DNA of 37,649 bases from Bdellovibrionales bacterium (GTDB lineage Bacteria > Bdellovibrionota > Bdellovibrionia > Bdellovibrionales > UBA1609): positions 1-37,649 of the forward strand of contig JAGRAE010000006.1 of assembly GCA_020435005.1 (NCBI GenBank), in the 5' to 3' direction. Shown here one piece after another: positions 9,757 to 34,687 of this stretch. Both the position numbers and the translations under genes were made by a program. The notes beneath the pieces were generated by a model. That model made no database searches. It was not told the origin of the DNA and was given only the letters and a program-made list of their open reading frames with translations. The stretch's first letter is position 1. The number at the start of each line of letters is the position of its first letter.

Positions 9757-9803
9757 AACTCTCACTTTCATATTATATTAAATAAGTAGTTTTATACCTT
9801 GAT

Positions 9804-17278: not shown

Positions 17279-18811
17279 TTAATGTTTAAAGTGGCGGGTG
17301 CCTGTTAGCACCATTCCCATTTTATGGTTTTCAACGGCTTTGATGACATCATCATCTTTTATTGAGCCACCTGGTTGAATAACCCACTTAATTCCCGCTG
17401 CTGCCGCTTTCTCAATAGAGTCGGGAAATGGAAAAAAAGCATCACTAGCTAATACAATTTCTTTTGCTTGTGAGTGAAACTGCTTAGCACGCAAAATAGA
17501 TTGTTGAACAGCATCCACTCGATTGACTTGGCCCATACCCAAACCCAAGGTTTGTCCATGACTGGTTAAGGCAATTGCATTACTCTTTAGTGAGGCACAA
17601 ACTTTCATTGCAAAAAGCATTTCACTTTTTATCTCATCACTGGGATTTTTACCAACTATCTTCCAGTCAGCTGAAAATTCTTGCTCAACTTGGTCAGTGT
17701 CTTGAACCAAGAAACCGCCCATAACTCTTCGAAAATCAAATTTTGTCTTCCACTGACTTAAATCTCCAGCTTTTAGTAGTCGCAAATTCTTTTTAGTTGC
17801 TAATATCCTTTGGGCCTCTCCGGTAAAGTCTGGAGCAACAATACACTCTAAAAATATATTGGATAGCTCTTTTGCCATACTGTCATTAACGATACCATTT
17901 ATTGCAACAATACCACCAAATACACTCACAGGATCTGCAGCCAACCCCTTGCTTACAGCTGTTTCGTAGTTACCTGCTGTAGCTACGCCACAAGGATTGT
18001 TGTGCTTTACAGCGACACAAGTGGGTTCGCTAAATTGCAATAGAGTATTTAATGCAGCATCTAGATCTAATAGATTATTATAAGACAAGGCTTTGCCCTG
18101 TAAAATTTCTGCCTCATGCAAACCCTTTTCTCCAAAAGCACGATACCAGTTAGATGTTTGCTGAGGGTTTTCTCCATATCGCAATGATTGCACTAACTCC
18201 CCACCTAATGAGAAAAACTTTTGTTCTTCATTAAATTTATTATTCTCTTCTGAACTTAAAGCTCGTGCGACCATAGAGTCATAGGCCGAAACATGATAGA
18301 AAACTTTTGAAGCTAAAGCTTTTCGTTTTTCTATTCCAATCTCATTTAAACTTATAATTTCTTGATAATCCTTGGGGTCACAAACTGTAGTTATTCGAGA
18401 AAAACTTTTTGCCGCCGCTCTCAAAAAAGAAGGTCCACCGATATCAATAAACTCCTGTAAATCTTGATCATTGAGCCCCTTTGCCAAGGCCTGTTCAAAG
18501 GCATATAAGTTTCCAACAACCAAATCAAATGGTTGTAAATCTATTTTATCTAATGTTGCCATATCTTCTTTTACGTAATCACGTGCCAGCAAAGCCATAT
18601 GCACTCTCGGATGTAAAGTTTTGACTCTGCCATCCATAACTTCTTCAAAACCTGTTTGTTCTGAAACTTTCACTACATTAATTCCCGCTTCTTTGAGAAG
18701 TTTGGCTGTTCCTCCAGTTGAAACCACTCTCATGCCTTTTTCAGCAAGAGGTTTAATAAATTCTACCAAGCCTTCTTTATTAGCTACACTGACTAATGCA
18801 TTCTTAAACAC
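17279..18811 (-). CDS. purH: Bifunctional AICAR transformylase/IMP cyclohydrolase PurH
   Basis: 510 residues, the normal length for PurH, which carries out the last two steps of purine synthesis (AICAR to FAICAR with 10-formyl-THF, then FAICAR to IMP). The N-terminal cyclohydrolase domain shows RVVSTGGTAKLL and GRVKTLHPRVH. The C-terminal transformylase domain has CVAVKHNNPCG with the catalytic Lys-His, and VLASDAFFPFPD. The start is the GTG at 18809-18811 with GGAGG 5 nt upstream, matching the family N-terminus (FKNALVSVANKEGL); the longer ATG frame is rejected. It is cytoplasmic. It faces the frameshifted gene across 104 bp with no convincing hairpin terminator. Confidence 0.97.
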   Translation of the reverse strand: MFKNALVSVANKEGLVEFIKPLAEKGMRVVSTGGTAKLLKEAGINVVKVSEQTGFEEVMDGRVKTLHPRVHMALLARDYVKEDMATLDKIDLQPFDLVVGNLYAFEQALAKGLNDQDLQEFIDIGGPSFLRAAAKSFSRITTVCDPKDYQEIISLNEIGIEKRKALASKVFYHVSAYDSMVARALSSEENNKFNEEQKFFSLGGELVQSLRYGENPQQTSNWYRAFGEKGLHEAEILQGKALSYNNLLDLDAALNTLLQFSEPTCVAVKHNNPCGVATAGNYETAVSKGLAADPVSVFGGIVAINGIVNDSMAKELSNIFLECIVAPDFTGEAQRILATKKNLRLLKAGDLSQWKTKFDFRRVMGGFLVQDTDQVEQEFSADWKIVGKNPSDEIKSEMLFAMKVCASLKSNAIALTSHGQTLGLGMGQVNRVDAVQQSILRAKQFHSQAKEIVLASDAFFPFPDSIEKAAAAGIKWVIQPGGSIKDDDVIKAVENHKMGMVLTGTRHFKH

Positions 18812-18932
18812 AATTTGCCTCCATTGTGTTGAGTGAATCATTTAAATGTAATGACATTCAAGTTCGTGTTTTTAATATCACTCTTTATAGGTGGGTGCAA
18901 TAAATTGACACGATCCAGACAGCCCTCAGCTA

Positions 18933-19487
18933 TCATTTAACATCATACTTCATGTCTATACCATCTATGTAGGTACCATCTATGTTCTTCACATAATTTC
19001 TATGAAGACCTTCTTTAACAAACCCAATCTTTTTATACAAATGAATGGCCCGAGGATTAGAGCTCAATACACCTAAATTAACAATTTCTATATCTTTGTG
19101 ATTTCTAGCCCATTTAAGCAATTCTTCTAATAAAGCTTTACCCACACCTTGATTCCTATAGTCTTTGTGAACAGACATGCCAAAGGCTCCCTTATGCCTC
19201 ATCCGAATAGGACGATTTTGATGAAAATCGAGAAAGCCAATGATTTTTTCTTGATAGATTGCAACTAGTCCTAAATCACCACTATATTCAATTATACTTT
19301 TTAACCATTCTTCTTCTTGCTTAACTGTCATATGAAACTCATCGACAGTCCTAATATTAAACTCTGGTTCAAAGCCATTAAGCTTTATGTAGTTCAATAA
19401 ATCTTGTGCATCAGTAACCTGTGCAGACCTAATAGTCACTTTTTTATTATTTTTCATTATATAGGAAGAGCTATCAATAATTGCCAT
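18933..19487 (-). CDS. GNAT-family N-acetyltransferase
   Basis: 184 residues. The GNAT fold is shown by the N-terminal IRSAQVTDAQDLLNYI, the core strand LGLVAIYQEKIIGFLDF, the acetyl-CoA pyrophosphate-binding loop DYRNQGVGKALL (R/Q-x-x-G-x-G/A) and the C-terminal NPRAIHLYKKIGFVKEG. It resembles RimI-like or small-molecule acetyltransferases; the substrate cannot be assigned. It starts 26 bp after mlaD on the same strand, so it could be the tail of the alr-mla operon. The start codon is uncertain: the first ATG has only AAGAG upstream, and a second ATG (11 codons on) has no ribosome site. Confidence 0.88.
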   Translation of the reverse strand: MAIIDSSSYIMKNNKKVTIRSAQVTDAQDLLNYIKLNGFEPEFNIRTVDEFHMTVKQEEEWLKSIIEYSGDLGLVAIYQEKIIGFLDFHQNRPIRMRHKGAFGMSVHKDYRNQGVGKALLEELLKWARNHKDIEIVNLGVLSSNPRAIHLYKKIGFVKEGLHRNYVKNIDGTYIDGIDMKYDVK

Positions 19488-19513
19488 TATAAAACTCTTA
19501 TTTTTAATATAAA

Positions 19514-20875
19514 TTATAGACTTATCTTGGAAGCAAAAGTTTTTAAATCTTCGTTAGTGATAAACACACCTGCGCCAATAAATGAGGAACGTAAATCCTC
19601 ATCAGCCAAATCATCACCGCCACCGATAAGATAAATACCTTTGAGTACTTGATAGCGTACAAAAGCGCGAATATTAACATCTTCGAAGTCAAGTGCTTCC
19701 AAAGAAAAGCGTAATCTATGGTTTAACAAATGGTAATCAAATCCCACTCCACCAGCGCTTTCCATGATTCCACCCTTAACTGTAAAATCCCAAAAGTTTT
19801 TGGCGAATAAAACATTAAACTTAATTTTACTTTTATCTATGGTTGTAGTTGTAGACGTAGCTCCTCCATTTACAGAAGTATCTACAACTTTTGTTACTCC
19901 CCGTGGATCATCAACAATACCAACAATATAATAACGATCTAAACCTGGTTGAATTTTAATATTTAAATAAGATTTAGATTTATCAACTTCTGTTAAAAAT
20001 TCAGAGTGAAAATCTATGCTCGTCTCCATAGCTCCTGCGCCACCAAGAAACTCATTTACGTTATCAATAGCTGTATTCACCTTATCAACTGTTTCTTCGT
20101 CATTAACTAAGCGGCCAATAGTTCCTTTGCCACTATTAATTTTATCTGTAATTTCTTCAGCATTTTCTAGAGCTTTATCTAAATGCTTTAAACTGTCTAC
20201 GGCATTTGACCAAGCCGCCTTAAAGCCCTCTGGAGAATCATCGTTAATTAAGTTGTCTAAAGTTTTTGTTATTCGATCCACCTGATCAACGATATCCTTA
20301 ATTTGTTTTTTATTTTCACCAGTTACTTGCGCGAGATCTTCGGTCAGTCGTTCAATATTGTTTATTATTCTTCCCAAAGAAGTATCACGATTTCCTTCCT
20401 TCGCGGCCTGTTCAATTACTTTTGAGACTTCTTTAAGTGAAGAAGCAATGTCACCGACTTGCTCCATGACTTTATCTAATGAGGCTTGATTAACATCGGC
20501 ATTGATTTGTCCCTGTTCCATTTTAGGATCAGATAATTTTCCTGGAACAAGCTCAACGTGACGATCACCTAATATTCCGTCAGCTCTCAGTTGGGCCTTG
20601 GTTGAAGTAGTCATTGGAACTTCATCTTCAATAACGATATGTACGCGGGCTTTACCATCGGCTAGTTTAATGTCATCAATGATACCCACTTTTATGCCAG
20701 CCATTTTTACAGCGGAATTTTTAACTAAGCCGCCAGCGTCTTCTACTTCAAACCAAAACTTTTTATTGCCAGCTAATACACCTGGGCCTTCTGCAACTTT
20801 AAGTGACATACCCCCAATGAGGGCTGACACAACTACTACTAATACTCCTACTTTAAATTCTGGTGTCGTAAACAT
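19514..20875 (-). CDS. mlaD: MCE-family lipid-binding protein MlaD
   Basis: 453 residues. A single N-terminal transmembrane helix (about 8-23) follows the typical PEFKVGVLV start, and an MCE domain covers about 37-115 (KNSAVKMAGIKVG, LRADGILGDRHVELVPG). A long helical coiled region (about 130-280) and a beta-rich C-terminal extension (about 285-453) follow; the protein is far longer than E. coli MlaD (about 183 residues), as in long-form MCE proteins. It is anchored in the inner membrane with the MCE ring in the periplasm and should carry phospholipid between membranes with MlaE and MlaF. Its ATG overlaps the mlaF stop by one base. Confidence 0.92.
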   Translation of the reverse strand: MFTTPEFKVGVLVVVVSALIGGMSLKVAEGPGVLAGNKKFWFEVEDAGGLVKNSAVKMAGIKVGIIDDIKLADGKARVHIVIEDEVPMTTSTKAQLRADGILGDRHVELVPGKLSDPKMEQGQINADVNQASLDKVMEQVGDIASSLKEVSKVIEQAAKEGNRDTSLGRIINNIERLTEDLAQVTGENKKQIKDIVDQVDRITKTLDNLINDDSPEGFKAAWSNAVDSLKHLDKALENAEEITDKINSGKGTIGRLVNDEETVDKVNTAIDNVNEFLGGAGAMETSIDFHSEFLTEVDKSKSYLNIKIQPGLDRYYIVGIVDDPRGVTKVVDTSVNGGATSTTTTIDKSKIKFNVLFAKNFWDFTVKGGIMESAGGVGFDYHLLNHRLRFSLEALDFEDVNIRAFVRYQVLKGIYLIGGGDDLADEDLRSSFIGAGVFITNEDLKTFASKISL

Positions 20876-21639
20876 TAGTGTTTTTTCAATCCCTTATCTA
20901 CAAATTTACGTACTAGCTCCAAATCAGAGTTTAAAAAGTCGTCTGGAGTCCCCTGCAATAAAACTTTGCCCTTATCTAACATAACTACATTTTCACCAAT
21001 GCGAAAAGCTGCCATTAAATCATGTGAAACCACAATTGTAGTGGACCCTGTATGCTTTTTATGGGTTTCTTGTATCAAATTATCCACCATTTCTGTTAAA
21101 ATGGGATCTAATCCCGTTGTTGGTTCATCATATAACAAAATATCTGGATCAAGGGCTAGTGCTCTTGCTAAACCTGCTCTTTTTCTCATACCTCCAGATA
21201 ACTCTCCAGGTAATTTATTAAAATGCTTAGAATCTAAGCCAGACATGTGTAACTTTTTCTCTGCCATTTCGATAACTTCACGAGTCGGTAAATAACGCCT
21301 ATGTTCATGTATGGGAAAAGCCACATTCTCAAGAACAGTTAAATCATCAAATAATGCAGCATGCTGAAAAAGTACACCAAAGCTACATCGTAATTTAACG
21401 AGTTCATCCTCGGAAAGTTGCCAAATATTTTTACCTAAAACATTCACTTCACCAGATGTTGGCTTTAGGAGCCCTAACATATGTTTCAAAAGAACACTTT
21501 TTCCTGTTCCCGAGTAACCAATAATAACTGTTAAACTTCCTCTGGGAATTTGAAGATCAATACCGTTAAGTACAAACTCATGACCACCATCAAATGACTT
21601 TTTAAGATCTTTTATTTCGATGGCCATTTCTTTTTTCAT
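20875..21639 (-). CDS. mlaF: ABC transporter ATP-binding protein MlaF
   Basis: 254 residues with a complete nucleotide-binding domain: Walker A GYSGTGKS (41-48), Q-loop FQHAALFDD (91-99), signature LSGGMRKR (147-154), Walker B ILLYDE (167-172), D-loop TGLDP and switch VVSHD near 205. It is most like the MlaF/Ttg2A subgroup (spacing LLKPTSGEV and GGMRKRAGLARAL). It energises the MlaE permease in the cytoplasm. It lies 4 bp after mlaE and overlaps mlaD by one base. The ATP-binding sites appear intact. Confidence 0.95.
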   Translation of the reverse strand: MKKEMAIEIKDLKKSFDGGHEFVLNGIDLQIPRGSLTVIIGYSGTGKSVLLKHMLGLLKPTSGEVNVLGKNIWQLSEDELVKLRCSFGVLFQHAALFDDLTVLENVAFPIHEHRRYLPTREVIEMAEKKLHMSGLDSKHFNKLPGELSGGMRKRAGLARALALDPDILLYDEPTTGLDPILTEMVDNLIQETHKKHTGSTTIVVSHDLMAAFRIGENVVMLDKGKVLLQGTPDDFLNSDLELVRKFVDKGLKKH

Positions 21640-21643
21640 TCAA

Positions 21644-22483
21644 TTAAATTCCCGTTAAAGTGTAATAAAAACGAATAAGATTGGTCATTATAAAATTTAA
21701 AATGATTATTAATACCATACTGTTTACAACACCTGTATTTGTTGCTTCACCAACCCCCTTAGCTCCACCTTTAGTAAAATATCCTGCGTGAGTACAGATA
21801 GTGGCGAAAGTTAATCCAAAAACAGCTGATTTAATAAGCCCTTCATTGATATCTTTTGGGTTTATCCATAAAGCAATTTTGTCCCAAAAAATGGCTTCGT
21901 CTAATCCTAAAACTTGAATGCACAAAACATGAGAACCTAACATCGCAACGAAATCAAAAATTCCACAAAGTAAAGGCATTGTAATTATAGCGGCCACAAG
22001 ACGAGGCATAACTAAATATTGTTTAGGATCCACCCCCATAACTTCTAAAGCATCTATTTGTTCACTCACTCTCATGGTACCTAATCGAGCCGCCATAGCT
22101 CCACCTGCTCGAGCTGATACAATTAATCCTGTTAAGACGGGTCCTAGCTCACGAGTTATGCCTAAGGCAACAGTCGGACCCACTAAATTTGTAGCATTAA
22201 CTAACTGAAACCCCAAAAATATTTGGTAAGACAACGCCATACCCGTAAAACTACCTGTTAGTAAAATAATCATTACAGATTTGTTACCAATAAACTCCAT
22301 ATGACGGATAATCTCATCTGTTCTTTTTGGCTGGCTACCAATTAACCTTAGAGAGTCATATAAAAAGATAGTTACTCGACCGCACTCAATAAAGAAATCA
22401 TAGAATACTTTCCACAACTTTAAGGCAATGTTATCCAATGCCTTATTAAACTTCTCTCTTTTTTCTAAATAATTATTCAACAT
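21644..22483 (-). CDS. mlaE: Phospholipid ABC transporter permease MlaE
   Basis: 279 residues, inner membrane, with five or so transmembrane segments. Family motifs include GLIVSARAGGAMAARLGTMRVSEQIDALEVMGVDP, the conserved coupling region of MlaE/YrbE permeases, and a C-terminal VGEATNTGVVNSMVLIIILNF. It is the membrane subunit of the Mla system for moving phospholipids between the outer and inner membranes. The N-terminal 60 or so residues form an amphipathic helix, as usual. Its ATG lies inside alr, overlapping by 11 bp, so translation should be coupled to alanine racemase. Confidence 0.93.
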   Translation of the reverse strand: MLNNYLEKREKFNKALDNIALKLWKVFYDFFIECGRVTIFLYDSLRLIGSQPKRTDEIIRHMEFIGNKSVMIILLTGSFTGMALSYQIFLGFQLVNATNLVGPTVALGITRELGPVLTGLIVSARAGGAMAARLGTMRVSEQIDALEVMGVDPKQYLVMPRLVAAIITMPLLCGIFDFVAMLGSHVLCIQVLGLDEAIFWDKIALWINPKDINEGLIKSAVFGLTFATICTHAGYFTKGGAKGVGEATNTGVVNSMVLIIILNFIMTNLIRFYYTLTGI

Positions 22484-23612
22484 AATTTCGTGGAACTCTT
22501 TTGCCTATACCCGTTAATAATTCATAAGAAATAGTTGAAGCTAACTTAGCAATTTCCTCAACTGCTAAAAACTGCCCTTCCATTTCACCAAACAAAACCA
22601 CCTCTTCTTGCCACTTTCCTGCCGATCCCTGTAAAGCATCAGTAAGGTCTACCATAGTATAATCCATGCATACAGTTCCAACTACAGGAACACGTTTTCC
22701 CCGGTACAATATAACACCCTTTTGTGAAAACAACCTATGATAACCGTCACCATAACCAATGGGAATTACTCCTATAATCGAATTGCGCGGCGCAATCCAA
22801 TGCCCCCCATAGGAAACTTTTTCACCTTTAGAGATGTTATGATACGCAATTACTTCAGACTTAAGGGTCATTACAGGTTTTAAATTAATAGATTCCCATT
22901 GTTGACTTTGGTTTTCATTTAAAGATTTTAAATGAGGTTTAACTCCATACAAGGAAATACCTGGACGGGAACCAAAAGGAAATCGATTGTCTATTGAATT
23001 TGCAATTAACCCTGAACTGTTAAACAAATGAATATTTTTAATATCTATATTTAATATTTTTATAAATTTCTCGAACTTTTGAATTTGCATTTGTGTGAAT
23101 GAACTTTCTTTAAAAAAATCCTCTGCCTCTGCTAAATGAGAACAAAGCCCAAGCACTTTTATTTGTTGATTTTGATTCAATAAATCAATTAGCTCACTCA
23201 GATGAACCTCATCTAAACCTAAACGATTCATACCTGTATTTAGCTTTAGATGTATAGGCATGGGTGTCTGACTTTTTACTATTGTTAGCAATTGTTCCCA
23301 AACACTTACCACTGGTATCAACTTATATTCATTCACATAAGATATTGCTTCTTGATTAAAAGGGCCAAATACCAATATTGGTTCTATAATACCTGACTCT
23401 CTTAACATTATGGCTTCTTCCATCAAAGCAACACCGAATACATTAGCTCCTTCTTTAATCAGCGAACGTGCAACTTGAACATCACCATGACCATAGGCTG
23501 AAGACTTAATCATAGGACAGAAAAATGTATTGTTTGGTGCAAGAGCTCTTAAAGTTTTAAAATTGTGCCTTAGATTCGATAAATTAATTTCTGCAAAAGT
23601 ATTTCTTATCAT
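22473..23612 (-). CDS. alr: Alanine racemase
   Basis: 379 residues, PLP enzyme converting L- to D-alanine for peptidoglycan. Lys36 in MIKSSAYGHGD is the PLP-binding lysine (usual form VKANAYGHG). HLKLNTGMNRLG is the family's substrate-binding loop, FPFGSRPGISLYGV the phosphate-binding part, GEKVSYGG carries the second catalytic Tyr, and VCMDYTMVDL is the C-terminal domain signature. Starting codon and length match the family. It directly abuts the preceding GGDEF gene (stop and start in TAAATG), and overlaps mlaE by 11 bp, so it is inside a signalling-to-envelope operon instead of being a lone gene. Confidence 0.95.
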   Translation of the reverse strand: MIRNTFAEINLSNLRHNFKTLRALAPNNTFFCPMIKSSAYGHGDVQVARSLIKEGANVFGVALMEEAIMLRESGIIEPILVFGPFNQEAISYVNEYKLIPVVSVWEQLLTIVKSQTPMPIHLKLNTGMNRLGLDEVHLSELIDLLNQNQQIKVLGLCSHLAEAEDFFKESSFTQMQIQKFEKFIKILNIDIKNIHLFNSSGLIANSIDNRFPFGSRPGISLYGVKPHLKSLNENQSQQWESINLKPVMTLKSEVIAYHNISKGEKVSYGGHWIAPRNSIIGVIPIGYGDGYHRLFSQKGVILYRGKRVPVVGTVCMDYTMVDLTDALQGSAGKWQEEVVLFGEMEGQFLAVEEIAKLASTISYELLTGIGKRVPRNYVE

Positions 23613-25082
23613 TTATAGTTTTGAGCCATCTAATATAAAATCAGGAATGAAACCATCTGGAGCAGATGCTAAACATACCTTATTACTTCCCGTTTTTTTA
23701 ACCTCAAAAATTGCTTCATCAGCCGTTTTTAAAATGTCTTCATAACTTCTACTATGTGAAGGATACTCACTGACACCGACTGAAATTGTCAAGTTCTTAT
23801 GACTGGGAATCACTTTCGAAAAATCTGCAGACTCAAAAATCCTTCTCATTCTCTCAGCTTTAATTGCGCCACCAAGTTTACCTGTATGAGGTAATATTAT
23901 TCCAAAAGAATATCTATCTAAACGGCCAATAACGTCATTAACTCGACTATGTCGTCTTAAAATAGTGGCACACATTTTTAAAAGTAAATCTTGTTCATAT
24001 TGGTTTAGATTCTCTTGAATCAATTCATGATCATCGATAGTTAGCAATACAAGTGTTATTGGCAAAGTGATACGGCGCGACCTTGAAATCTCTCTTTTTA
24101 AAGTATCTATAAAATTGTCACGATTTAAAACTCTTGTTTTATCATCATGAATTGAAACACTATGAAGTTTTTTTATTAAGTTAATTTGACTAACTTTTAA
24201 AGATAAAGACTTTAAACATGATTTAATATAAGCCTCTTTTTCTAGTTCTTTGCCAACATTTAAAACAACAAATATTCCCTCGGGTATGCCTTGAACTATT
24301 AATGGAAAAGCAGCAAATTCTTTTACATTCAGAGCTTTATTAATTAAACGTTCAAGACCTTTTAATTTTAGAGGATCTCTTAATGAGTCAATATTAAAAC
24401 TACGCTCCTCTTTTGTTAGTTCAATTCCTAATCCTCTCACTTTTTCAATGTCTGTGACAACACTTTGAGAAGCCACTAAGGATTGATGAGAGGGAATGTA
24501 TTTAAAATAAACAATTTCTTTTTTTGATAAATATCTTGATGCCTCTGATAAGAAGCAATCTATTACTTCTTTAAGATTTCTTTTTTCGTTTAATTGACTC
24601 AACCATATATCAAATAATGATATTTCGTTCTGGCCATTTACACCTTCGCTTCTTAAGCTTCGGGACTTCAACTGCTCATTCATGTAAATGTAGTAATCAC
24701 ATTCAGCAGCTCTATCAGCAGCTCTAACTAAAAATTCTAAATTATCTTCATGATAGGCAACACAATCATAAACCCCTCGACTAATAAACTGACTAGTTGA
24801 GAACAATTCATACTGTTCGGCATAAATGATGATATGAACTTCTGGCAAAAGATTTATGAGATCATCAATAAAGGACTCTCCATAAACAATTAAAGTGTCT
24901 TGTTCGACTAAAACAATATGAGGCGGATTCGCTTTAACTTCTTCGATCAAAATTTCTGAAGAATTAAACTTGCTTGTTGAATAACCAGTTTTTTTAAACG
25001 TCTCAAAAACCTTTTCACATCGTTCATTTTGTGAATCAACGATATGGACAACAAAAGAAGGTCTATACTGTTGGATTCTCAA
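23613..25082 (-). CDS. Receiver-like/GAF-like/degenerate GGDEF protein with intact I-site
   Basis: 489 residues, cytoplasmic. Residues about 9-125 resemble a response-regulator receiver domain, but the strand that normally ends in the phospho-acceptor Asp reads HIVLVEQD, with Glu60 at or near that place. Residues about 140-310 look like a GAF-type linker domain. Residues about 313-475 are a GGDEF fold (TRVLNRDNF, LPHTGKLGGAIKAERMR, LTISVGVSEYPSH, ILKTADEAIFEVKK). The catalytic GGDEF loop is DRYSF (389-393), so diguanylate cyclase activity is not expected. The inhibitory-site RxxD (R380VND383) is present exactly five residues before it, which is the c-di-GMP-binding I-site of the family. It is best read as a c-di-GMP receptor. 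Its ATG overlaps the upstream kinase-like gene by 4 nt. Confidence 0.88.
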   Translation of the reverse strand: MRIQQYRPSFVVHIVDSQNERCEKVFETFKKTGYSTSKFNSSEILIEEVKANPPHIVLVEQDTLIVYGESFIDDLINLLPEVHIIIYAEQYELFSTSQFISRGVYDCVAYHEDNLEFLVRAADRAAECDYYIYMNEQLKSRSLRSEGVNGQNEISLFDIWLSQLNEKRNLKEVIDCFLSEASRYLSKKEIVYFKYIPSHQSLVASQSVVTDIEKVRGLGIELTKEERSFNIDSLRDPLKLKGLERLINKALNVKEFAAFPLIVQGIPEGIFVVLNVGKELEKEAYIKSCLKSLSLKVSQINLIKKLHSVSIHDDKTRVLNRDNFIDTLKREISRSRRITLPITLVLLTIDDHELIQENLNQYEQDLLLKMCATILRRHSRVNDVIGRLDRYSFGIILPHTGKLGGAIKAERMRRIFESADFSKVIPSHKNLTISVGVSEYPSHSRSYEDILKTADEAIFEVKKTGSNKVCLASAPDGFIPDFILDGSKL

Positions 25083-27370
25083 TTGTCACCCCGCAATTTG
25101 GGTTTGCGAATGGTTACCACTAAATCATCAATAGGTGTCTCTTTTTCTGCAGATAAATAATTTGTATTTTGGGGAACTTCAGGCAAGTCAATATCTTCAT
25201 CATTTAAGGGAAGCTTATCCGCTAAAGTCGCTAATGTTTCTGAGGCATAAGGTTCAACAACTATTTTTGTTTTTGAAAGATCTGAGGCTTTAGGTGGTTT
25301 AACCATTACAAAATCATCCTCATCTTGGTCTTCTTCTCGAGTTACCACTTGAGTCTCATCTTGGTCATGGTCTAAATCTATTTCCTCTTCGCCCTTGGTT
25401 AATTGAGCAGGAATATCTTGATCCTGTCTCTTAATTTGAAACAAGTCTTCTTCATCAGTTTCAAAACCGATAAAACTATCTTGGTTCATTTCATCTTGCT
25501 CTTTATGATTAAATTCAGAAATGACATCAAGATCTGTGGACTTTAGTGATTCTTGGTCTAACACTTCTGTTAGTTCATCCTTAGAAATATCTACTAGTTG
25601 TGTGTCTTGAGTGTTTTTAGAATCCAAATATTCTTGGATTTCATGCTCAGTGGCCGTAGGCAAAAACATTTCAATACATACACCTCCATCTGAGTTATCT
25701 GTAACTAATAGATTACCTTCTAAACGCTTCGTTAATATATTAGCAATTGATAGTGACATGATATCTTCAACACCATCAATTTCAGTTTTAAAGGGTTCAA
25801 TTAAATTTTTAACTTTATCAGCTGACAGATTCTCACTGTTTGAAACAATTTTTAAAGTAAGTTCATTATGGTTGTCAGTTGATGTAAAGTACAAATCTCT
25901 TTGAATTTGCTCTGAGAAATTATTAACCAAAAACTGGATAATTAAAGACAGCGCTTTTTCTAAATGGATTTGTTGGCTTTGAATATATTTCTTTGATTTT
26001 AAGTTTTTATGAATACGTATGCCTTTTTCATTAAAAGTATTAACACTCTCTCTCAATAAATCTGAGATTACATCTTCAAATAATATTGGCTTAAATATTA
26101 CATCTCCTACTTTCACAGCGGAATGTAAATCATCCAAAATACTTCGAGCCTTGCGAGTCTCTGCCTGTGCTTTATCTATACAATTATTGACAGCTTGTTG
26201 ATCTATACCCGCTTTAGCCATTTGCAAGTGCCCCAATAAAGCACTTAAGGGTTTAGCCAATACTTTTGTAAGGTTTAGGCTAAAGTTTTTATACATTTCA
26301 TACTTTTCAGTTTCATTTACTATTTTGAAAGGAACGTCCTTCTTGGTAGAATCAACTTGTTCAATTACATGATGAGACTCTTCTATTTCTTCCAATTTAT
26401 TTTGTAAAGTTTCAAAAATAGGTACCATTTGTAAAACTTCTTTCATATGCTCTTCAGGTGGAGTCAACGGTTCACCACGTATTAGTTGATTTAAAGAATT
26501 TCTAATAAAAGCCAATGATTTTTCAAGAGGAAATAAAGTAATAGTTGTGAATAAAAACATGGCTACAACCAATATAAAACCAGCCATTAATAACTCTGTC
26601 CAATTTATGTAAGCCCAGTAGTTACCAAATTTTATTTTGTGAACCACTCCCACCGTTAAATTGGTATTTTCCACAGTTTCAAAACTCATAATTAACTTAT
26701 AGCTGTTTTCGATCGTTTTTGTGTCGACTCCAGATATATGTTTACTACTCAATGCTAATTGACTTATTGGATGAGTATCAACGTTAGCCCCTAGATACTT
26801 TTTTTCTGGGTGAACTATAGCATTTACCTTATTGGCTAGAACAAAAACATTATGATCTTCAGTTTGTTTTGCATCTAATAATGAGGCCAGATCATTTAAC
26901 TTGAGAAAACCTGTTAAAATAAAACCTTTAGACTTCAAAAGAACCAGTAAATAACTTTTTGCTTTAGCTACTTTTATACTTTGAAAAGCTAATGAATCAT
27001 TTGTTTCAATTCTAGCAAAGGGTAGGTTTGATAATTCACTACTTAAGCTTTTTTCTTTGATATTTGAACTTCGACTTTGGAAGTTATCGACTATGTACTT
27101 TCCTTCTTGAAATTTTAGCTTAGCAATGGCTAAAAATGGACCCATTTCAAGAGGTCCAGAGTTTATATTTGCATGTATAAGGGCTTTTTTTATTTCATCG
27201 GTATAAAAGCCTAAACTTTGGCTGATAGCTGTGGCTTCACTTAATGTTAAATCTTCAAGTTGCTTTCCCTCCTTTTGACTGACTCCTTGAGTTAATAGCC
27301 AAAAGGACACAAGGCAGGCCAAGATTACTGTTGATACAATCGGGAATAACAGGCGGTATCTAAAATTCAC
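25079..27370 (-). CDS. Membrane sensor kinase-like protein lacking the phospho-acceptor histidine
   Basis: 763 residues from a GTG with GGAAGG upstream. Transmembrane helices at about 7-27 and 257-281 enclose a periplasmic region of about 230 residues with a Cache-like pattern. Residues 283-340 form a HAMP-like or coiled connector. Residues 361-420 resemble the histidine-kinase dimerisation helix, but the phospho-acceptor position is Lys369 (LTKVLAKPL instead of xSHELRTPL). The following region (about 425-575) resembles the HATPase_c fold (IIQFLVNNFSEQ as N-box; SLSIANILTKRLEG; CIEMFLP) but lacks the DxGxG box (NSENLS at 511-516). A highly acidic tail (about 580-763) follows. It is therefore probably a pseudokinase relaying envelope signals by conformation or partner binding, most likely to the GGDEF protein encoded next. 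Confidence 0.85.
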   Translation of the reverse strand: MNFRYRLLFPIVSTVILACLVSFWLLTQGVSQKEGKQLEDLTLSEATAISQSLGFYTDEIKKALIHANINSGPLEMGPFLAIAKLKFQEGKYIVDNFQSRSSNIKEKSLSSELSNLPFARIETNDSLAFQSIKVAKAKSYLLVLLKSKGFILTGFLKLNDLASLLDAKQTEDHNVFVLANKVNAIVHPEKKYLGANVDTHPISQLALSSKHISGVDTKTIENSYKLIMSFETVENTNLTVGVVHKIKFGNYWAYINWTELLMAGFILVVAMFLFTTITLFPLEKSLAFIRNSLNQLIRGEPLTPPEEHMKEVLQMVPIFETLQNKLEEIEESHHVIEQVDSTKKDVPFKIVNETEKYEMYKNFSLNLTKVLAKPLSALLGHLQMAKAGIDQQAVNNCIDKAQAETRKARSILDDLHSAVKVGDVIFKPILFEDVISDLLRESVNTFNEKGIRIHKNLKSKKYIQSQQIHLEKALSLIIQFLVNNFSEQIQRDLYFTSTDNHNELTLKIVSNSENLSADKVKNLIEPFKTEIDGVEDIMSLSIANILTKRLEGNLLVTDNSDGGVCIEMFLPTATEHEIQEYLDSKNTQDTQLVDISKDELTEVLDQESLKSTDLDVISEFNHKEQDEMNQDSFIGFETDEEDLFQIKRQDQDIPAQLTKGEEEIDLDHDQDETQVVTREEDQDEDDFVMVKPPKASDLSKTKIVVEPYASETLATLADKLPLNDEDIDLPEVPQNTNYLSAEKETPIDDLVVTIRKPKLRGDN

Positions 27371-27555: not shown

Positions 27556-29145
27556 ATGCCATCTAAAACGCAAAATTGCATTATTGTTATTGGTTCGGGA
27601 ATCGCTGGTTTGTACTATTCTCTTAGAACCGCTGATAAACATCCTGTTATCCTCATCTCAAAAACTCAATTAACTAAGGGAAATTCATTAATGGCTCAAG
27701 GGGGAATAGCTGCGGCCATAGCTGAAGAAGATAGTTTCGAACGACATATAGAAGATACCTTATCTGCCGGTGCTGGTTTGTGCCATGAGGATGTAGTTAA
27801 CCAAGTTGTCCATATGGGCCCAATGCTTATCCAGGAACTAGAAAACCTCGGCGTACATTTTACTCAAAACCAAAATCAAAGGTCACTGCATAAAGAAGGC
27901 GGACATAGCACTCGACGTATATTGCATGTTGATGACATGACCGGAGCTGCTATTCATAAGAGTTTACTAAATCGAGTCATTGAACACCCAAACATAGAAG
28001 TTCTTGAAAACCATATAGCCATTGATTTAATTACTAAAACTCAAGTCACAAAAAAACCTGTTACACAAAACCAATGCTTAGGTGTTTATGTTTTAGACAT
28101 TTATGCTTCACAAGTAAAAACATTGAAATCCAATCAAGTAGTTCTAGCCACTGGTGGAGCTGGTAAAACATATTTATATACTTCAAATTGGAGTGGTGCG
28201 ACAGGTGATGGCATTGCCATGGCCTGGAGAGCTGGGTGTCGCATAGCGAATTTAGAATTCATGCAATTTCACCCTACTTGCCTTTACCATGCTAATGAAA
28301 GAAATTTTTTAATTTCTGAAGCCATACGGGGTGAAGGAGCTCAACTTATAAATCACAATGGAGATAATTTTACACAAAAGTACCACAAATTGGGCGATCT
28401 AGCTCCCCGAGATATAGTCGCAAGAGCTATTGATGCTGAGCTAAAAAAATCAGGCAAAGAATGTGTCTATTTAAATACCACTCTTTTTTCGCAAGAATTT
28501 TTACTCAAACGATTCCCCAATATCTATAAAAAATGTTTAGAATTAGGTATAAAAATCGACCAAGAACCCATACCTGTTGTTCCGGCTGCCCATTATTTAT
28601 GTGGTGGAATTTTAGCTGATTCCCATGGACAAACAGACTTAAAGGGGCTTTTTGCCCTCGGCGAAACTGCATTTACAGGTTTACATGGAGCCAATCGCTT
28701 AGCTTCAAATTCTTTACTTGAATGTTTAGCCTATTCTTACAATGCCTCACAAAAAGAAGTAGATGTTTCTACTACAACTAATTTTGACTTACCTGCATTT
28801 CCTCAAAATAAACATAAAAATGAAGACGAGCTATCTGTTATTAATCATCTTTGGGATGAAGTTCGACGAATAATGTGGAATTATGTCGGAATTGTAAGAA
28901 CTGATAAACGATTACATCGGGCAAAGTCGCGTTTAAAAAATATAATTGACGAAGCCAAAGAGTATTATCAAAATTTTCATATTCATCCAGATATTATTGA
29001 ATTAAGAAATATTACGACGGTAGCTGATTTAACTGTTGATTGCGCTCTGAGGCGCAAAGAGTCCAGAGGCATTCATTTCAATTTAGATTATCCCAACAAA
29101 CTAAATCAAGCCGAGGATACAATTTTATATTTAAACAAAACCTAA
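27556..29145 (+). CDS. nadB: L-aspartate oxidase NadB
   Basis: 529 residues, near the usual 520-540. It is an FAD flavoprotein that oxidises L-aspartate to iminoaspartate, the first step of NAD synthesis with NadA. Seen motifs: dinucleotide-binding GSGIAG (13-18), MAQGGIAAAI, GGHSTRRILHVDDMTG, EFMQFHPT, RGEGAQLI, RDIVARAID, PVVPAAHYLCGGI and GANRLASNSLLECL, all typical of the succinate dehydrogenase/aspartate oxidase family; the C-terminal helical domain (RRIMWNYVGIVR) is specific for NadB. No signal peptide, so cytoplasmic and not a fumarate reductase. It has only a weak ribosome site. The stop overlaps the convergent outer-membrane-like gene by 4 bp. nadA and nadC are not in the window. Confidence 0.95.
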   Translation: MPSKTQNCIIVIGSGIAGLYYSLRTADKHPVILISKTQLTKGNSLMAQGGIAAAIAEEDSFERHIEDTLSAGAGLCHEDVVNQVVHMGPMLIQELENLGVHFTQNQNQRSLHKEGGHSTRRILHVDDMTGAAIHKSLLNRVIEHPNIEVLENHIAIDLITKTQVTKKPVTQNQCLGVYVLDIYASQVKTLKSNQVVLATGGAGKTYLYTSNWSGATGDGIAMAWRAGCRIANLEFMQFHPTCLYHANERNFLISEAIRGEGAQLINHNGDNFTQKYHKLGDLAPRDIVARAIDAELKKSGKECVYLNTTLFSQEFLLKRFPNIYKKCLELGIKIDQEPIPVVPAAHYLCGGILADSHGQTDLKGLFALGETAFTGLHGANRLASNSLLECLAYSYNASQKEVDVSTTTNFDLPAFPQNKHKNEDELSVINHLWDEVRRIMWNYVGIVRTDKRLHRAKSRLKNIIDEAKEYYQNFHIHPDIIELRNITTVADLTVDCALRRKESRGIHFNLDYPNKLNQAEDTILYLNKT

Positions 29146-29660
29146 CTTCCTCCTGATTCACCAAAACGGAAAGTAAAACCGCCTCCAATAAATAAAGATG
29201 TCCCAGGGTTTATATTAAACTTCATATCTAAACGAAACCAAAGATCTCTCGATATAATACTTAAGACTCCACCACCAACGTGTCCCCCCCCAAACGACTT
29301 AGCCTCTTGAGTTAAGGTTTCATAATTAGTCACATCTCCGCCAATGTAGACTATACCCACTAATTCTTCTATTGCCATATCCATACGCGCACTTACGCTG
29401 AGTTGCTTCCACTTTACACCCTCTCCATTTCCAGCATTTGCAGTAAATTCGATGGTTCCAGCACCACCTATGCCAAAGCCCATTCTCAAACCCCATTGAG
29501 GTTGGATTTCTGAAGCACCTGGAACTTGGTTGGGCAAGACGTTTCCTATCTGAGCTCCAAACTCATAGCTGGCGTTGTAGGGGTCATTTTCATTGTTTTG
29601 AGCCCATAAAACTTGAGTAAAACAAAAAATATATAAAAAAATAACTAAAAAGCTTTTCAT
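29142..29660 (-). CDS. Secreted beta-strand-rich protein, probably outer membrane
   Basis: 172 residues beginning with MKSFLVIFLYIFCFTQVLWAQ, a clear signal peptide cut after WA or WAQ. The ATG at 29658-29660 was preferred because it starts at the signal peptide; an ATG four codons upstream is an alternative and neither has a good ribosome site. The mature part is Gly-rich with alternating hydrophobic strands (FGAQIGNVLPN, GLRMGFGIGGAGTIEFTAN, FRLDMKFNINPGTSLFIGGGFTFRFGESGGS), suggesting a small barrel. The last strand ends FTFRFG followed by five residues, so it lacks the usual C-terminal Phe; barrel identity is an inference. It is convergent with nadB and divergent from the lipase gene. Confidence 0.75.
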   Translation of the reverse strand: MKSFLVIFLYIFCFTQVLWAQNNENDPYNASYEFGAQIGNVLPNQVPGASEIQPQWGLRMGFGIGGAGTIEFTANAGNGEGVKWKQLSVSARMDMAIEELVGIVYIGGDVTNYETLTQEAKSFGGGHVGGGVLSIISRDLWFRLDMKFNINPGTSLFIGGGFTFRFGESGGS

Positions 29661-29722
29661 TCCAACAATCATTACATTATGTTAGATTGATTCGGTCAAC
29701 GAATTCGAGGTATATTTTAACA

Positions 29723-31188: not shown

Positions 31189-31676
31189 AGACAGCAACTC
31201 GCCTTCTTCAAATTTAAGAAGTGACCTCTAATAAGTAAAAGACTACCAATAACAGCAACAATAGTTGATAACTGTAGATTAAATTGAGATGAACTCGCCA
31301 TTAAGGATGTATTATTTATTTGATGTTCATGTTGAGCGTGATGGTTATGCATAATACTATGATTTATCTCTGAGTGATTCATTTGTGAGTGATCTAATAA
31401 AATAAAATGACCTATTCCCACCAATAAGATACCAGAAACTAACCATTTTATAGGAGCCATTGAATGATGTTGTCTATATTTGTAAATAAACGCCAATAGA
31501 GCAAAAGCTATCATAAGTATGTAAAAGCCAAAATGAATCACAGGATTATGTACCATCCACGTAAGACCAATTGTTGGTAAAAAACTTAATATAAGAGGCA
31601 AAAAAATACAGTGGAAAATACATAATAAAGAGATAGTAATCCCAGAAAAATCAAAAGAATTATTATTAATTTTCAT
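31185..31676 (-). CDS. MerC-like integral membrane protein with His-rich loop
   Basis: 163 residues with four or so transmembrane helices (about 12-33, 45-64, 76-92, 135-151). The first helix holds LLCIFHCIFLP, the Cys-x-x-His-Cys pattern of the MerC family of mercury/metal membrane transporters. The third and fourth helices are joined by a His-rich stretch (residues about 95-118, for example MHNHHAQHEHQ), and the C-terminus ends with KKASCCL, so metal binding is likely. The specific metal is not known; there are no mer genes here. It overlaps addA (ATGA) and is thus the last gene of the addBA unit. Confidence 0.82.
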   Translation of the reverse strand: MKINNNSFDFSGITISLLCIFHCIFLPLILSFLPTIGLTWMVHNPVIHFGFYILMIAFALLAFIYKYRQHHSMAPIKWLVSGILLVGIGHFILLDHSQMNHSEINHSIMHNHHAQHEHQINNTSLMASSSQFNLQLSTIVAVIGSLLLIRGHFLNLKKASCCL

Positions 31677-34600
31677 TTTTGAAAGTACCTTTCATTCAAT
31701 TCAGATAAACTAAAAGCGTCTACTATAATTACTTTTTCCTCAATTGGAAAAATGACCGCTTTTTTAATATATCTACAGCCCAATTCGTACAAAGGAAAAC
31801 AATAAATGTCTAATTGCTTCATAGCTTTTTCGGTGTACTTGCTTGAACCTGACTTATAGTCAATTAACCAAGTTGTATCATTAATAGTGCCCCAAAGATC
31901 AATTTGCCCCTCAAATATAGAATTATTTTTTACCCATTGAAACCCCCACTCAACAAATCCTTCTTGCAACAAATTTAACATTGGAGGTTGATCAATTGCT
32001 TTAACCCAATTGTAAGCTTTGAGTATTTTTTCACTATCTGTTTCAGTAAAGTGAGTTAAAATGTAATCTTCGGCTTGCCAATTTTTAATATATCGTGCTT
32101 TTTCAAGCAAGTTGTGTATATCTGAACCTAACTGGGCAGTTTTTGCACCCTCATACATTGCTGAATTTTCTGTTAATTTAAATTTGTCAGAACCAGCATT
32201 AGCGTGAAGTCCATCCAAAAACCGAGTAACAGAGATTTTTTGAAGTCTTTTACTCATAGACTTTTCAATTTTTAATGGCGAAACTTCCTCCACTTGGCTC
32301 TCAGCAAACTGCCACTTCTCCAAATCATCAGAAATATCATCATTTGTATAAGAATAAACGTAACCTTTTTTCTGGTGGGTTCCTAATTGCAGAGGAAATC
32401 GACATCGTCCTAGCCAAGAATTTTCATCATATTTGCCTTCCCATGAAATGTATATATTTTTAACAGCCCGAGTAACAGCTACATAAAACAATCGATCAGA
32501 TTCTCTTAACTCTTGTTCTATAATACTTTCTATGCACATGTGATCTAAAACAGTCTTTTCCTTTTTACCGGCTTCTTGTGTTGGTACAGCAAATGACCAA
32601 AAATTATGGTTTTCATCTAAATGAATTTTATTATTCTCTTGAGCTCCATTGCTCAATTGTGGCTTTTTACCAGCTTCAATTATAAAAACATATTCAAATT
32701 GCAAACCTTTCGAAGCATGAATGGTCATCAAATTTATACAATTTGGTTCTAATGCTGCAACAGCATCGGCTTCTTCCGCTCCTTCACTCTCACTCAGATC
32801 AAGTTGAGTTTGATTTAAAAAATTGAAAATATTAAATCCTGGTTTTTTCTCTTGTTCATGCCATTGTGTAAACAACTTCCAAATATTTGATTCTCTTCTT
32901 CCAGATGCATCATGATAGTGTGAGTAAGTAATCACTCCCCAATCTTTTAGACAAATTTCTGTTGTAGTATAAACCCCCCATTTTTCACTTTTTTCAAGTA
33001 GCTCTTCCAAAATTTCAACTACAGAAGCTTTTATGTATTTTAAATGTTGCCACAATGAACAACTCCAATGTTTCCACTCTACAGTCCATTCAATAATTTT
33101 AGAGTCTTCAATAGCTAACCAGGGTGAACGCAACAAACCAACAAGATTTTCATTATCGCTTGTATTTACTAAAAAACGCACAAGAGATAATACGTCCAAA
33201 ATCTCTCTACGCTGAAAAAAGCCACCAGAGGCGTGGACATGTGTTGGAAGACTTAATGAGTTTAAAAAAAATGCCATATCCATTAATGGTTTATTTTTAC
33301 GGGATAACACACATATTTTTTCCGGCGAAATTCCTTGCTGCATTAAACCTAATACTTCTTTGGCCACAAATTTTTTGTCATTACCATTGTAAAACTTTGC
33401 CACCACTCTCTCTTCTTGAGGTTCCCCATAGCGATGACTAAAATCCATTTTCATAAAAGATTGCTCAAAATGACTAAACAAATCATTAATAAAAGACAGA
33501 AGTTCAGAGTAAGATCGGTAGTTTTTTGAAAGTCGCTCTCTCTTATTAATTAACTCTTGCTCTTTTCTGGCGAAAACTTCACTACGCGCACCTCGAAACA
33601 AATAAATACTCTGCTGAGGATCGCCAACGATATAACTCGGGCTCTTGCCTATTAACTTCTTTAATAGTGCTTCTTGCAATGGGCTTGTATCTTGATACTC
33701 ATCTATTAACCAATAATCCCACTCTTGAGCAAATGCTTCACCCAAACTAGACTCTTGGTTTAAGATTAAATGAGATATCAGCTCCAAATCTTGCATTTCT
33801 AATTTTGATAATTTCTTTTTATATTCTAAATATTTGTTTACAAATTTTTTTGCTAAAAGTTCGAATTTATTGAAAAAATTAGCTGCTCCAGCAACCTCAT
33901 CAAGTAGAAGTCCTGACTTTTCTAAATTCTTTTTAACTCTTTCATAACGAGTCTTAAAAGATTCATTAAACTCTTCATCTATATCTTTTGTTTTACTGGG
34001 CCGCCTACCAAAAGCCGACAAATAATCTAGAATATCATTTTCTGGCACCTTCAATAAGTAATCGGCCCACTTGAGCCATTTTTCATTTTGGATATGACTT
34101 ATGATTAATTCAGCCAGGCTTCTAAGTTCTTGCTGTTGTGCTTTCAAGTATTTTTTTACTAATTCTCTCAGATGTTTTTCATCTATAGCTATTGCTTCTG
34201 GGAGTCGACAACTGATTTCATAGTAATTCAAAAGTAATCCCGTTAAATCAGAATATGAGAAGTGCTCCAACCAAAACTCCCATTCTGAGTTAGAATCCAT
34301 CTCCTTAATTATAGTCTTTGCTAATATATTAGCTTCGCGTTTATTAATAATTTGAAAAGAATTATCCCATCCTAATATATGACCATAATTGCGCAAAAAT
34401 AAATTTAAAACTCCATGAATAGTTGAAATATGAATGTTGGCTCCCGAATCGACATACTCTAAAAACCCATCATTTTTCTCATCACAAGCTTTAACAATTA
34501 ATCTTTCTTTTAATTCTTGAGTTGCTTTACGGGTAAAAGTAGTAACAACAAGCCTTGGCCACTTGTCATGTGTTTTTTTATAGTTTGTGGCTATGTCATA

Positions 34601-34687
34601 TATATTTTGAGTCAACTGAGTTGTTTTACCAGCACCAGCGCCAGCACGTACAATTTTACTGTCTAGTTCAAATGTGGGGCTCGACAT
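31673..34687 (-). CDS. addA: UvrD/RecB-like helicase-nuclease, AddA subunit
   Basis: 1004 residues from the ATG at 34685-34687, which has GGAG upstream; nine residues of the longest frame are rejected. Superfamily 1 helicase motifs are complete: Walker A GAGAGKTT (16-23), TTFTRKATQELKER, WLIDEYQDTS, GDPQQSIYLFRGA, LMTIHASKGLQFEYVFI and FYVAVTRAVKN. The C-terminus has a RecB-type PD-(D/E)xK nuclease (GSDIHNLLEKA, EGQIDLWG, LIDYKSG, LDIYCF). With AddB it should process double-strand breaks to load RecA. It overlaps addB by 25 bp and the MerC-like gene by 4 bp. RecB of RecBCD is less likely because the partner is an AddB-type protein and there is no recC or recD. Confidence 0.9.
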   Translation of the reverse strand: MSSPTFELDSKIVRAGAGAGKTTQLTQNIYDIATNYKKTHDKWPRLVVTTFTRKATQELKERLIVKACDEKNDGFLEYVDSGANIHISTIHGVLNLFLRNYGHILGWDNSFQIINKREANILAKTIIKEMDSNSEWEFWLEHFSYSDLTGLLLNYYEISCRLPEAIAIDEKHLRELVKKYLKAQQQELRSLAELIISHIQNEKWLKWADYLLKVPENDILDYLSAFGRRPSKTKDIDEEFNESFKTRYERVKKNLEKSGLLLDEVAGAANFFNKFELLAKKFVNKYLEYKKKLSKLEMQDLELISHLILNQESSLGEAFAQEWDYWLIDEYQDTSPLQEALLKKLIGKSPSYIVGDPQQSIYLFRGARSEVFARKEQELINKRERLSKNYRSYSELLSFINDLFSHFEQSFMKMDFSHRYGEPQEERVVAKFYNGNDKKFVAKEVLGLMQQGISPEKICVLSRKNKPLMDMAFFLNSLSLPTHVHASGGFFQRREILDVLSLVRFLVNTSDNENLVGLLRSPWLAIEDSKIIEWTVEWKHWSCSLWQHLKYIKASVVEILEELLEKSEKWGVYTTTEICLKDWGVITYSHYHDASGRRESNIWKLFTQWHEQEKKPGFNIFNFLNQTQLDLSESEGAEEADAVAALEPNCINLMTIHASKGLQFEYVFIIEAGKKPQLSNGAQENNKIHLDENHNFWSFAVPTQEAGKKEKTVLDHMCIESIIEQELRESDRLFYVAVTRAVKNIYISWEGKYDENSWLGRCRFPLQLGTHQKKGYVYSYTNDDISDDLEKWQFAESQVEEVSPLKIEKSMSKRLQKISVTRFLDGLHANAGSDKFKLTENSAMYEGAKTAQLGSDIHNLLEKARYIKNWQAEDYILTHFTETDSEKILKAYNWVKAIDQPPMLNLLQEGFVEWGFQWVKNNSIFEGQIDLWGTINDTTWLIDYKSGSSKYTEKAMKQLDIYCFPLYELGCRYIKKAVIFPIEEKVIIVDAFSLSELNERYFQK

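Follow-up and report, generated by a model that had tools for sequence, protein, structure and literature searches.

How does a sensor kinase gene stay coupled to its partner when neither protein appears able to take part in phosphotransfer any longer? The question is raised by a stretch of 37,649 nucleotides from a bacterium of the order Bdellovibrionales (GenBank assembly GCA_020435005.1, contig JAGRAE010000006.1, positions 1 to 37,649), hereafter referred to as the window, which encodes a histidine kinase-like protein of 763 residues directly upstream of a second signalling gene. A first-pass annotation, made from the sequence alone, had described the two genes as a complete, phosphotransfer-free signalling relay. 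The underlying observation is real, but it missed that the partner has lost its cyclase motif and kept a binding site (I-site) for cyclic di-GMP (c-di-GMP), and that the kinase-like protein ends in a conserved peptide. The partner can now be read as a c-di-GMP receptor orthologous to CdgA of Bdellovibrio bacteriovorus, and the peptide is a candidate link between the two proteins. The best explanation that we can offer, and one whose prospects of being right we regard as evenly balanced, is that the kinase-like protein acts as a sensor at the membrane without phosphotransfer and uses its C-terminal peptide to hold CdgA.

The loss of the catalytic residues is readily seen in alignments with intact orthologues. 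The column of the phospho-acceptor His is occupied by Lys369, as the first-pass annotation had stated, and its report that the DxGxG box is absent holds as well: the G1 box, DTGxGM in intact orthologues, reads SNSENL at positions 510-515. The N-box and the G2 box have also been lost, with LNLMMNAGHAM replaced by IIQFLVNNF and GTGLGLS by DIMSLS. The profile search that had been proposed as a check gives matches to both kinase domains exclusively below the Pfam cut-offs, at 21.5 bits for HATPase_c (cut-off 26.4) and 14 bits for HisKA (cut-off 26.9). The AlphaFold model has a mean predicted local distance difference test (pLDDT) score of 72 and a predicted TM-score (pTM) of 0.42, which leaves the packing of the domains unsure, but it bears out the claim that the periplasmic sensing part and both membrane helices are kept. 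The modelled core resembles ZraS and CpxA over ~220-235 columns, with TM-scores by target of 0.65-0.76 for the best chains. The periplasmic sensor is probably Cache-like; the intact orthologues L071, L072, and L202 match dCache_1 over this region, below the Pfam cut-off. Pfam returned no HAMP match in the window kinase, in contrast to the intact orthologues. With its fold retained in the model and its catalytic residues gone, the protein classifies as a pseudo-histidine kinase.

The partner gene, which had been labelled simply as a GGDEF gene, needs a different description. Its receiver-like domain matches Response_reg at 23.5 bits (cut-off 30.2) and was correctly said to lack a standard phospho-Asp: Glu60 takes that position, Tyr110 replaces the conserved Lys, and PPH is retained at 53-55. 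By their motifs, therefore, neither protein should be able to take part in His-Asp phosphotransfer. In the GGDEF-fold domain, the signature motif reads DRYSF (389-393) and the first metal-binding Asp is replaced by T348; with DRYSF in place of GGDEF, the protein cannot be a diguanylate cyclase. The c-di-GMP I-site is kept, as it is in 111 of 115 orthologues, whereas GG[DE]E[FY] survives in just eight of the 104 orthologues scored on the tree. With its cyclase motif lost and this I-site kept, the window protein is probably an enzymatically dead c-di-GMP receptor. Elsewhere in the same genome, we observed further GGDEF proteins with an intact GG[DE]EF motif (L083, L088, L094, and L098), so c-di-GMP is probably made, and a GYF-PilZ protein encoded at 8872-9771 of the window is likely a second c-di-GMP receptor.

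The assignment of the partner as a CdgA orthologue rests on conserved gene order (nadB/kinase/cdgA/alr/mlaEFD/purH). The order kinase-like gene, GGDEF protein gene, alr, mlaE, mlaF, mlaD recurs in every one of 20 genomes sampled throughout the order, nadB and purH being counted where the retrieved stretch extends to them, and the pairing of the kinase with CdgA is thus not due to chance. Local departures include an open reading frame (ORF) that separates alr from the GGDEF protein gene in L079 and a stretch without a nadB match in L067. Gene order was also the more effective guide to orthologues, as a search with the kinase sequence alone found relatives in just 33 of 59 genomes. One relative with the same cluster, in which the GGDEF protein reads RTNDVTCRTGVNEF, is taken by us to be B. 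bacteriovorus HD100. Another, G048, presumably Bdellovibrio strain Tiberius, encodes four GGDEF proteins; of these, the one from the cluster matches least well and has GVNEL at the motif. The four proteins agree with the noted absence of DgcD from strain Tiberius (PMC3271064), and the HD100 sequence comprises an I-site and GVNEF, as described for CdgA (Bd3125), the sole degenerate member among five HD100 GGDEF proteins, in which the RxxD I-site lies five residues upstream of GVNEF (PMC3271064). HD100 CdgA binds c-di-GMP with a Kd of about 2 uM, has no cyclase activity, localizes to the pole that faces the prey, and is required for fast prey entry (PMC3271064); c-di-GMP binding, polar position, and the role in prey entry are established for the HD100 protein alone. 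CdgA binds RomR and the tetratricopeptide repeat (TPR) protein Bd2492/SgmX1 (PMC3983030, in two-hybrid tests; PMC11025332). Pfam finds no receiver in HD100 CdgA, and its descent from a response regulator becomes visible solely through comparison with intact orthologues.

Such intact orthologues are found in families f2, f3, f4, and f7 as well as in the outgroup f11, which comprises three genomes from another order. In all of these, the kinase is intact (His in GIAHEVKNPL, N-box, DTGxG, and GLGL) and stands beside an intact receiver (DDE, Asp, and Lys) joined to GGEEF or GGEEY, which implies that a working system has lost its chemistry, stepwise and repeatedly. The His and the DxGxG box are therefore not always lost, a point that the first-pass annotation had raised, being kept in these families, in most of f8, and in some members of the window's own family. 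On a tree calculated quickly under LG+G4 from linked genes of the cluster, and containing some doubtful long branches, the His and the ATP-site motifs each undergo at least 13 changes. Most of the Bdellovibrio-like f8 genomes keep the kinase motifs, including the His, beside a dead receiver. Overall, the His occurs without the receiver Asp/Lys pair in 37 genomes and the reverse in only two, so the receiver seems usually to have been lost before the kinase His. Within the window's family, only G025, G033, and the group G012/G028/G137 combine the His with ATP-site motifs; an H in the His column of G134 and G008 was not counted, as the ATP-site motifs are missing there.

The region most strongly conserved in the dead kinases is a peptide at the C-terminal end (VTIRKPKLR). 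Two residues are invariant in an alignment of 28 sequences, one of them being R755, and P757 is at least 90% conserved. A hydrophobic-R-x-P motif ends nearly all orthologues that adjoin a receiver-bearing CdgA, whether intact or dead. Across those dead kinases in the window's family that adjoin a receiver-bearing CdgA, sequences are on average 46% identical within the peptide and 15-23% elsewhere, and the kinase core, at 21-23%, fares no better than the remainder; in intact systems, the DHp region reaches 82%. The model agrees in that pLDDT climbs past 50 at residues 752-760, after a disordered linker. An origin of the peptide as a ribosome-binding site for cdgA was considered and rejected: Arg is encoded by all six of its codons and Pro by all four, and such free codon use points to selection on the protein. 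The same conclusion follows from G139, G010, and G003, which lack the peptide despite the same 4-nt overlap of the next gene. The pattern used to detect the peptide matches 4.5% of unrelated ORF ends, and single weak matches were not trusted. A literature search found no paper on a comparable C-terminal docking peptide of a kinase.

The presence of the peptide follows that of the CdgA receiver. Among 120 genomes scored, in which both ends were readable, the peptide is present in 101 of the 106 with a receiver-like domain in CdgA (95 of them matching the strict pattern and six accepted by eye on a relaxed one) and in none of the 14 without one, an association with a Fisher p of 2e-14 that ignores relatedness. 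The receiver changes at least seven times on the tree, and five well-supported independent pairs point in the same direction in almost every pairing and never in the opposite one. The peptide has been lost where only the receiver domain was removed, as in G139, G010, G012, G028, G137, and G001. It is also lacking in G025 (L204), G003 (L205), and G140 (L227), where cdgA is absent and the kinase-like gene stands directly beside alr; in G025, the kinase-like protein retains its His and ATP-site motifs despite the absence of cdgA. Genus g4 plausibly shows the order of events: G026 and G138 hold both receiver and peptide, and in their sister group G139 has no receiver and a peptide eroded to IQMPQAKVRGDD, while G003 and G140 have no cdgA at all. 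A separate situation is seen in one f8 genus (L231 in G089 and L232 in G087), where CdgA is shortened to ~318 residues with a receiver-like start, its I-site is not kept (GD and KN), and the kinase has no peptide; this is an exception to an explanation by the receiver alone.

From these observations, we propose the following model. The ancestor was an ordinary two-component system, in which a histidine kinase of Cache-HAMP type worked with a diguanylate cyclase of receiver-GAF-GGDEF layout. The window's lineage has lost the sites for phosphotransfer and cyclase activity but retains the two genes together at their location within the alr-mla operon. CdgA would now be an enzymatically dead receptor with c-di-GMP bound at its I-site, and the dead kinase would anchor it at the inner membrane by docking of the IRKP peptide on the pseudo-receiver, with a disordered tether of ~150 residues between the kinase core and the docking peptide. 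This tether would predate the loss, being present already in intact systems, and would have stayed when phosphate transfer went. A periplasmic signal could reach CdgA through altered docking or position, replacing phosphate transfer, and CdgA would integrate periplasmic input and c-di-GMP. Thus, the part of the first-pass claim that concerns the absence of phosphotransfer is most likely correct, given the motifs and the kept pairing, but "complete" is too strong for a relay in which we infer the signal, the membrane recruitment, and the direct contact between peptide and receiver. What the sequences themselves establish is that all catalytic motifs have gone, that the partner is orthologous to CdgA, that the ancestor was intact, and that the peptide is conserved and missing wherever CdgA has no receiver domain. 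The wider proposition that a whole pathway of kinase, receiver, and cyclase has been kept without its chemistry as a docking relay, with the peptide controlling a pseudo-receiver on a c-di-GMP receptor, is one that we hold more tentatively and think somewhat more apt to fail than to stand.

Several observations weigh against the docking model. Five genomes (G021, G043, G054, G087, and G089) have a receiver-like domain without a recognizable peptide. The independent contrasts are few, and the sign test on the five pairs gives p = 0.0625, the minimum attainable. The tree behind the co-occurrence analysis was built quickly from linked cluster genes and has doubtful long branches. The peptide is also found in intact systems and is hence not specific to the dead state, and purifying selection on the window copy is argued by analogy from other genera.

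The last point bears on the suggestion that the window copy is simply decaying and functionless, as the first-pass annotation had supposed that orthologues with an intact His might reveal. Such orthologues do exist, in f2, f3, f4, f7, f11, and most of f8, but decay appears limited to the catalytic sites, because the genes are open, syntenic, and under purifying selection where this is measurable, and because the peptide is conserved. The ratio of nonsynonymous to synonymous substitution rates (dN/dS) is 0.12-0.25 for pairs of dead kinases within genera, with dS mostly near saturation, compared with ~0.04 for closely related pairs in which the kinase motifs survive. In the window, all 763 codons are open, the 4-nt coupling to cdgA is kept, and the membrane helices and sensor fold are retained. 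The kinase does not look like plain gene decay, since its ORF is open and dead-kinase pairs elsewhere are under purifying selection; a plain pseudogene was rejected on those dN/dS values together with the conserved C-terminal peptide, and a functionless copy strikes us as very improbable. Somewhat better placed, though still improbable, is an arrangement like that of DivL, in which the degenerate core would bind a phosphorylated receiver or dimerize with an active kinase, and phosphate would enter from elsewhere. The model keeps the DHp/CA fold, some family members hold ATP-site motifs without the His, and the DivL pseudo-kinase reads DivK~P without kinase activity (PMC4211667). However, the N-, G1-, and G2-box motifs are absent from the window kinase, conservation of the core does not exceed that of the other regions, and the peptide-bearing orthologues G018, G031, G042, G105, and G002 have no recognizable kinase core at all.

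The dead kinase might alternatively have ceased to act on CdgA and serve another role, for example, at the membrane in connection with alr or Mla, with CdgA working alone. The genomes in which the kinase-like gene persists beside alr without cdgA (G003, G140, and G025) fit this, as do the dN/dS of 0.115 for the pair G003/G140 (dS about 3) and the motifs retained in G025. Yet, the peptide is gone from these same three genomes and is the best-conserved region where CdgA has a receiver, which argues for a role linked to CdgA, and we regard such a separate function as rather unlikely. Slightly stronger, although in our view still unlikely, is the idea that the partner of the peptide is another component of the polar hub, such as RomR or the TPR protein SgmX1, to which the CdgA pseudo-receiver binds as well; in that case, the dead kinase would be a membrane scaffold of the hub, and joint loss of peptide and receiver would reflect a lost link to it. 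CdgA does bind RomR and Bd2492/SgmX1 in two-hybrid tests (PMC3983030), the pseudo-receiver of Myxococcus FrzS binds SgmX (reviewed in PMC12632262), and a shared partner explains the association between peptide and receiver equally well. Direct contact, as in the docking model, is nevertheless the simplest account of two facts: the genes are strictly paired, and the peptide disappears when just the receiver is lost.

The coordinates of the features discussed above are collected below, and those of the ORFs confirm the earlier statement that the operon begins with the kinase-like gene, the end of which shares 4 nt with the next gene. An acetyltransferase gene and then purH follow downstream of mlaD, and nadB is divergent at the other side of the cluster. 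The orthologue of a polar c-di-GMP receptor is here encoded beside alr and the lipid transporter genes mlaEFD in a conserved cluster, with purH close by (window 17279-23612). Further away, the protein encoded at 29142-29672 is small, begins with a sequence like a signal peptide, and has no match in Pfam, its homologues being encoded close to nadB in many of the genomes, and 31673-37377 holds genes for a UvrD-like helicase and a PD-(D/E)XK nuclease, an AddAB/RecBCD-like pair by arrangement.

Features of the gene pair and its conserved cluster (positions in the window; aa, amino acids)
Feature	Position	Strand	Basis or remark
Predicted pseudo-histidine kinase gene, 763 aa, GTG start	25079..27370	-	upstream of cdgA; first gene of operon
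First membrane helix, ~aa 6-28	27287..27355	-	hydrophobic stretch in sequence; AlphaFold helix 3-69
Periplasmic alpha/beta sensor, aa 31-250	26621..27280	-	AlphaFold model; Pfam matches of orthologues
Second membrane helix, ~aa 257-282	26525..26602	-	model and Pfam
DHp/CA-like core, aa 353-573, dead by motif	25652..26314	-	Pfam, alignment, model
Lys369 codon, phospho-acceptor His column	26264..26266	-	alignment to intact orthologues
Acidic linker, about aa 604-750, predicted disordered (pLDDT 31-42)	25121..25561	-	AlphaFold model
Conserved C-terminal peptide, aa 751-763 (VVTIRKPKLRGDN)	25082..25120	-	alignment
cdgA orthologue, 489 aa, pseudo-receiver, GAF-like, and degenerate GGDEF domains	23613..25082	-	TTG start
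Pseudo-receiver domain, aa 11-125	24708..25052	-	sub-threshold Response_reg match, model
GAF-like domain, aa 150-300	24183..24635	-	weak GAF match and model
GGDEF-fold domain, aa 313-471	23670..24146	-	profile match, alignment
I-site RVND (R380, D383)	23934..23945	-	alignment
alr (alanine racemase), next in conserved cluster	22473..23612	-	profile match and gene order
mlaE, conserved cluster	21644-22483	-	
mlaF, conserved cluster	20875-21639	-	
mlaD, conserved cluster	19514-20875	-	

Few regulators of Bdellovibrio prey invasion are known; CdgA is one of them, and we know of no sensor input to it. The gene pair described here supplies a periplasmic sensor as a candidate for this input. In the literature searched, both the receiver ancestry of CdgA and the upstream kinase appear to be unreported. 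A 2025 review concluded that the on/off switching of bacterial pseudo-receivers remains a mystery (PMC12632262), and the pair is a specific, testable candidate for such switching, and its living relatives display a gradation between the intact and the dead state. If the docking relay is real, it would constitute a direct way of switching a pseudo-receiver in bacteria, and an unstudied membrane sensor would sit upstream of the prey-invasion hub of Bdellovibrio.

Among known systems, the window copy is like CdgA (Bd3125) of B. bacteriovorus in its gene order, in combining a degenerate GGDEF motif with an RxxD I-site, and in having a similar length and layout, but it is the more degenerate of the two (DRYSF versus GVNEF). 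HD100 differs in that the kinase-like gene upstream has the His and the ATP-site motifs and the receiver Asp is gone; we found no paper on this upstream gene in a literature search. Cyclases of the PleD/WspR type share the receiver and GGDEF folds with the window CdgA, and the intact orthologues are of this kind, whereas the window copy has an intervening GAF-like domain and neither a cyclase motif nor a phosphorylation site. FrzS of Myxococcus is not known to contain a GGDEF domain or to be paired with a dead kinase. It is like CdgA in having the pseudo-receiver of a polarity/pilus protein, and FrzS binds SgmX just as Bdellovibrio CdgA binds SgmX1 (PMC12632262 for FrzS-SgmX). DivL of Caulobacter, the nearest pseudo-kinase, likewise has a kinase fold without the phospho-acceptor His and signals by contact with a response regulator, keeping its docking core and reading DivK~P (PMC4211667); in the window's family, by contrast, it is the C-terminal peptide that persists as the core erodes freely, and the regulator lacks a site for phosphorylation. 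The nearest working analogue is the NWETF pentapeptide of chemoreceptors, which stands at the C-terminus of a membrane sensor, acts as a tether for CheB/CheR, and recruits a response regulator, CheB (PMC8609364). The window system would differ from it in the peptide itself, in a sensor derived from a kinase, and in a pseudo-receiver as the putative target of binding.

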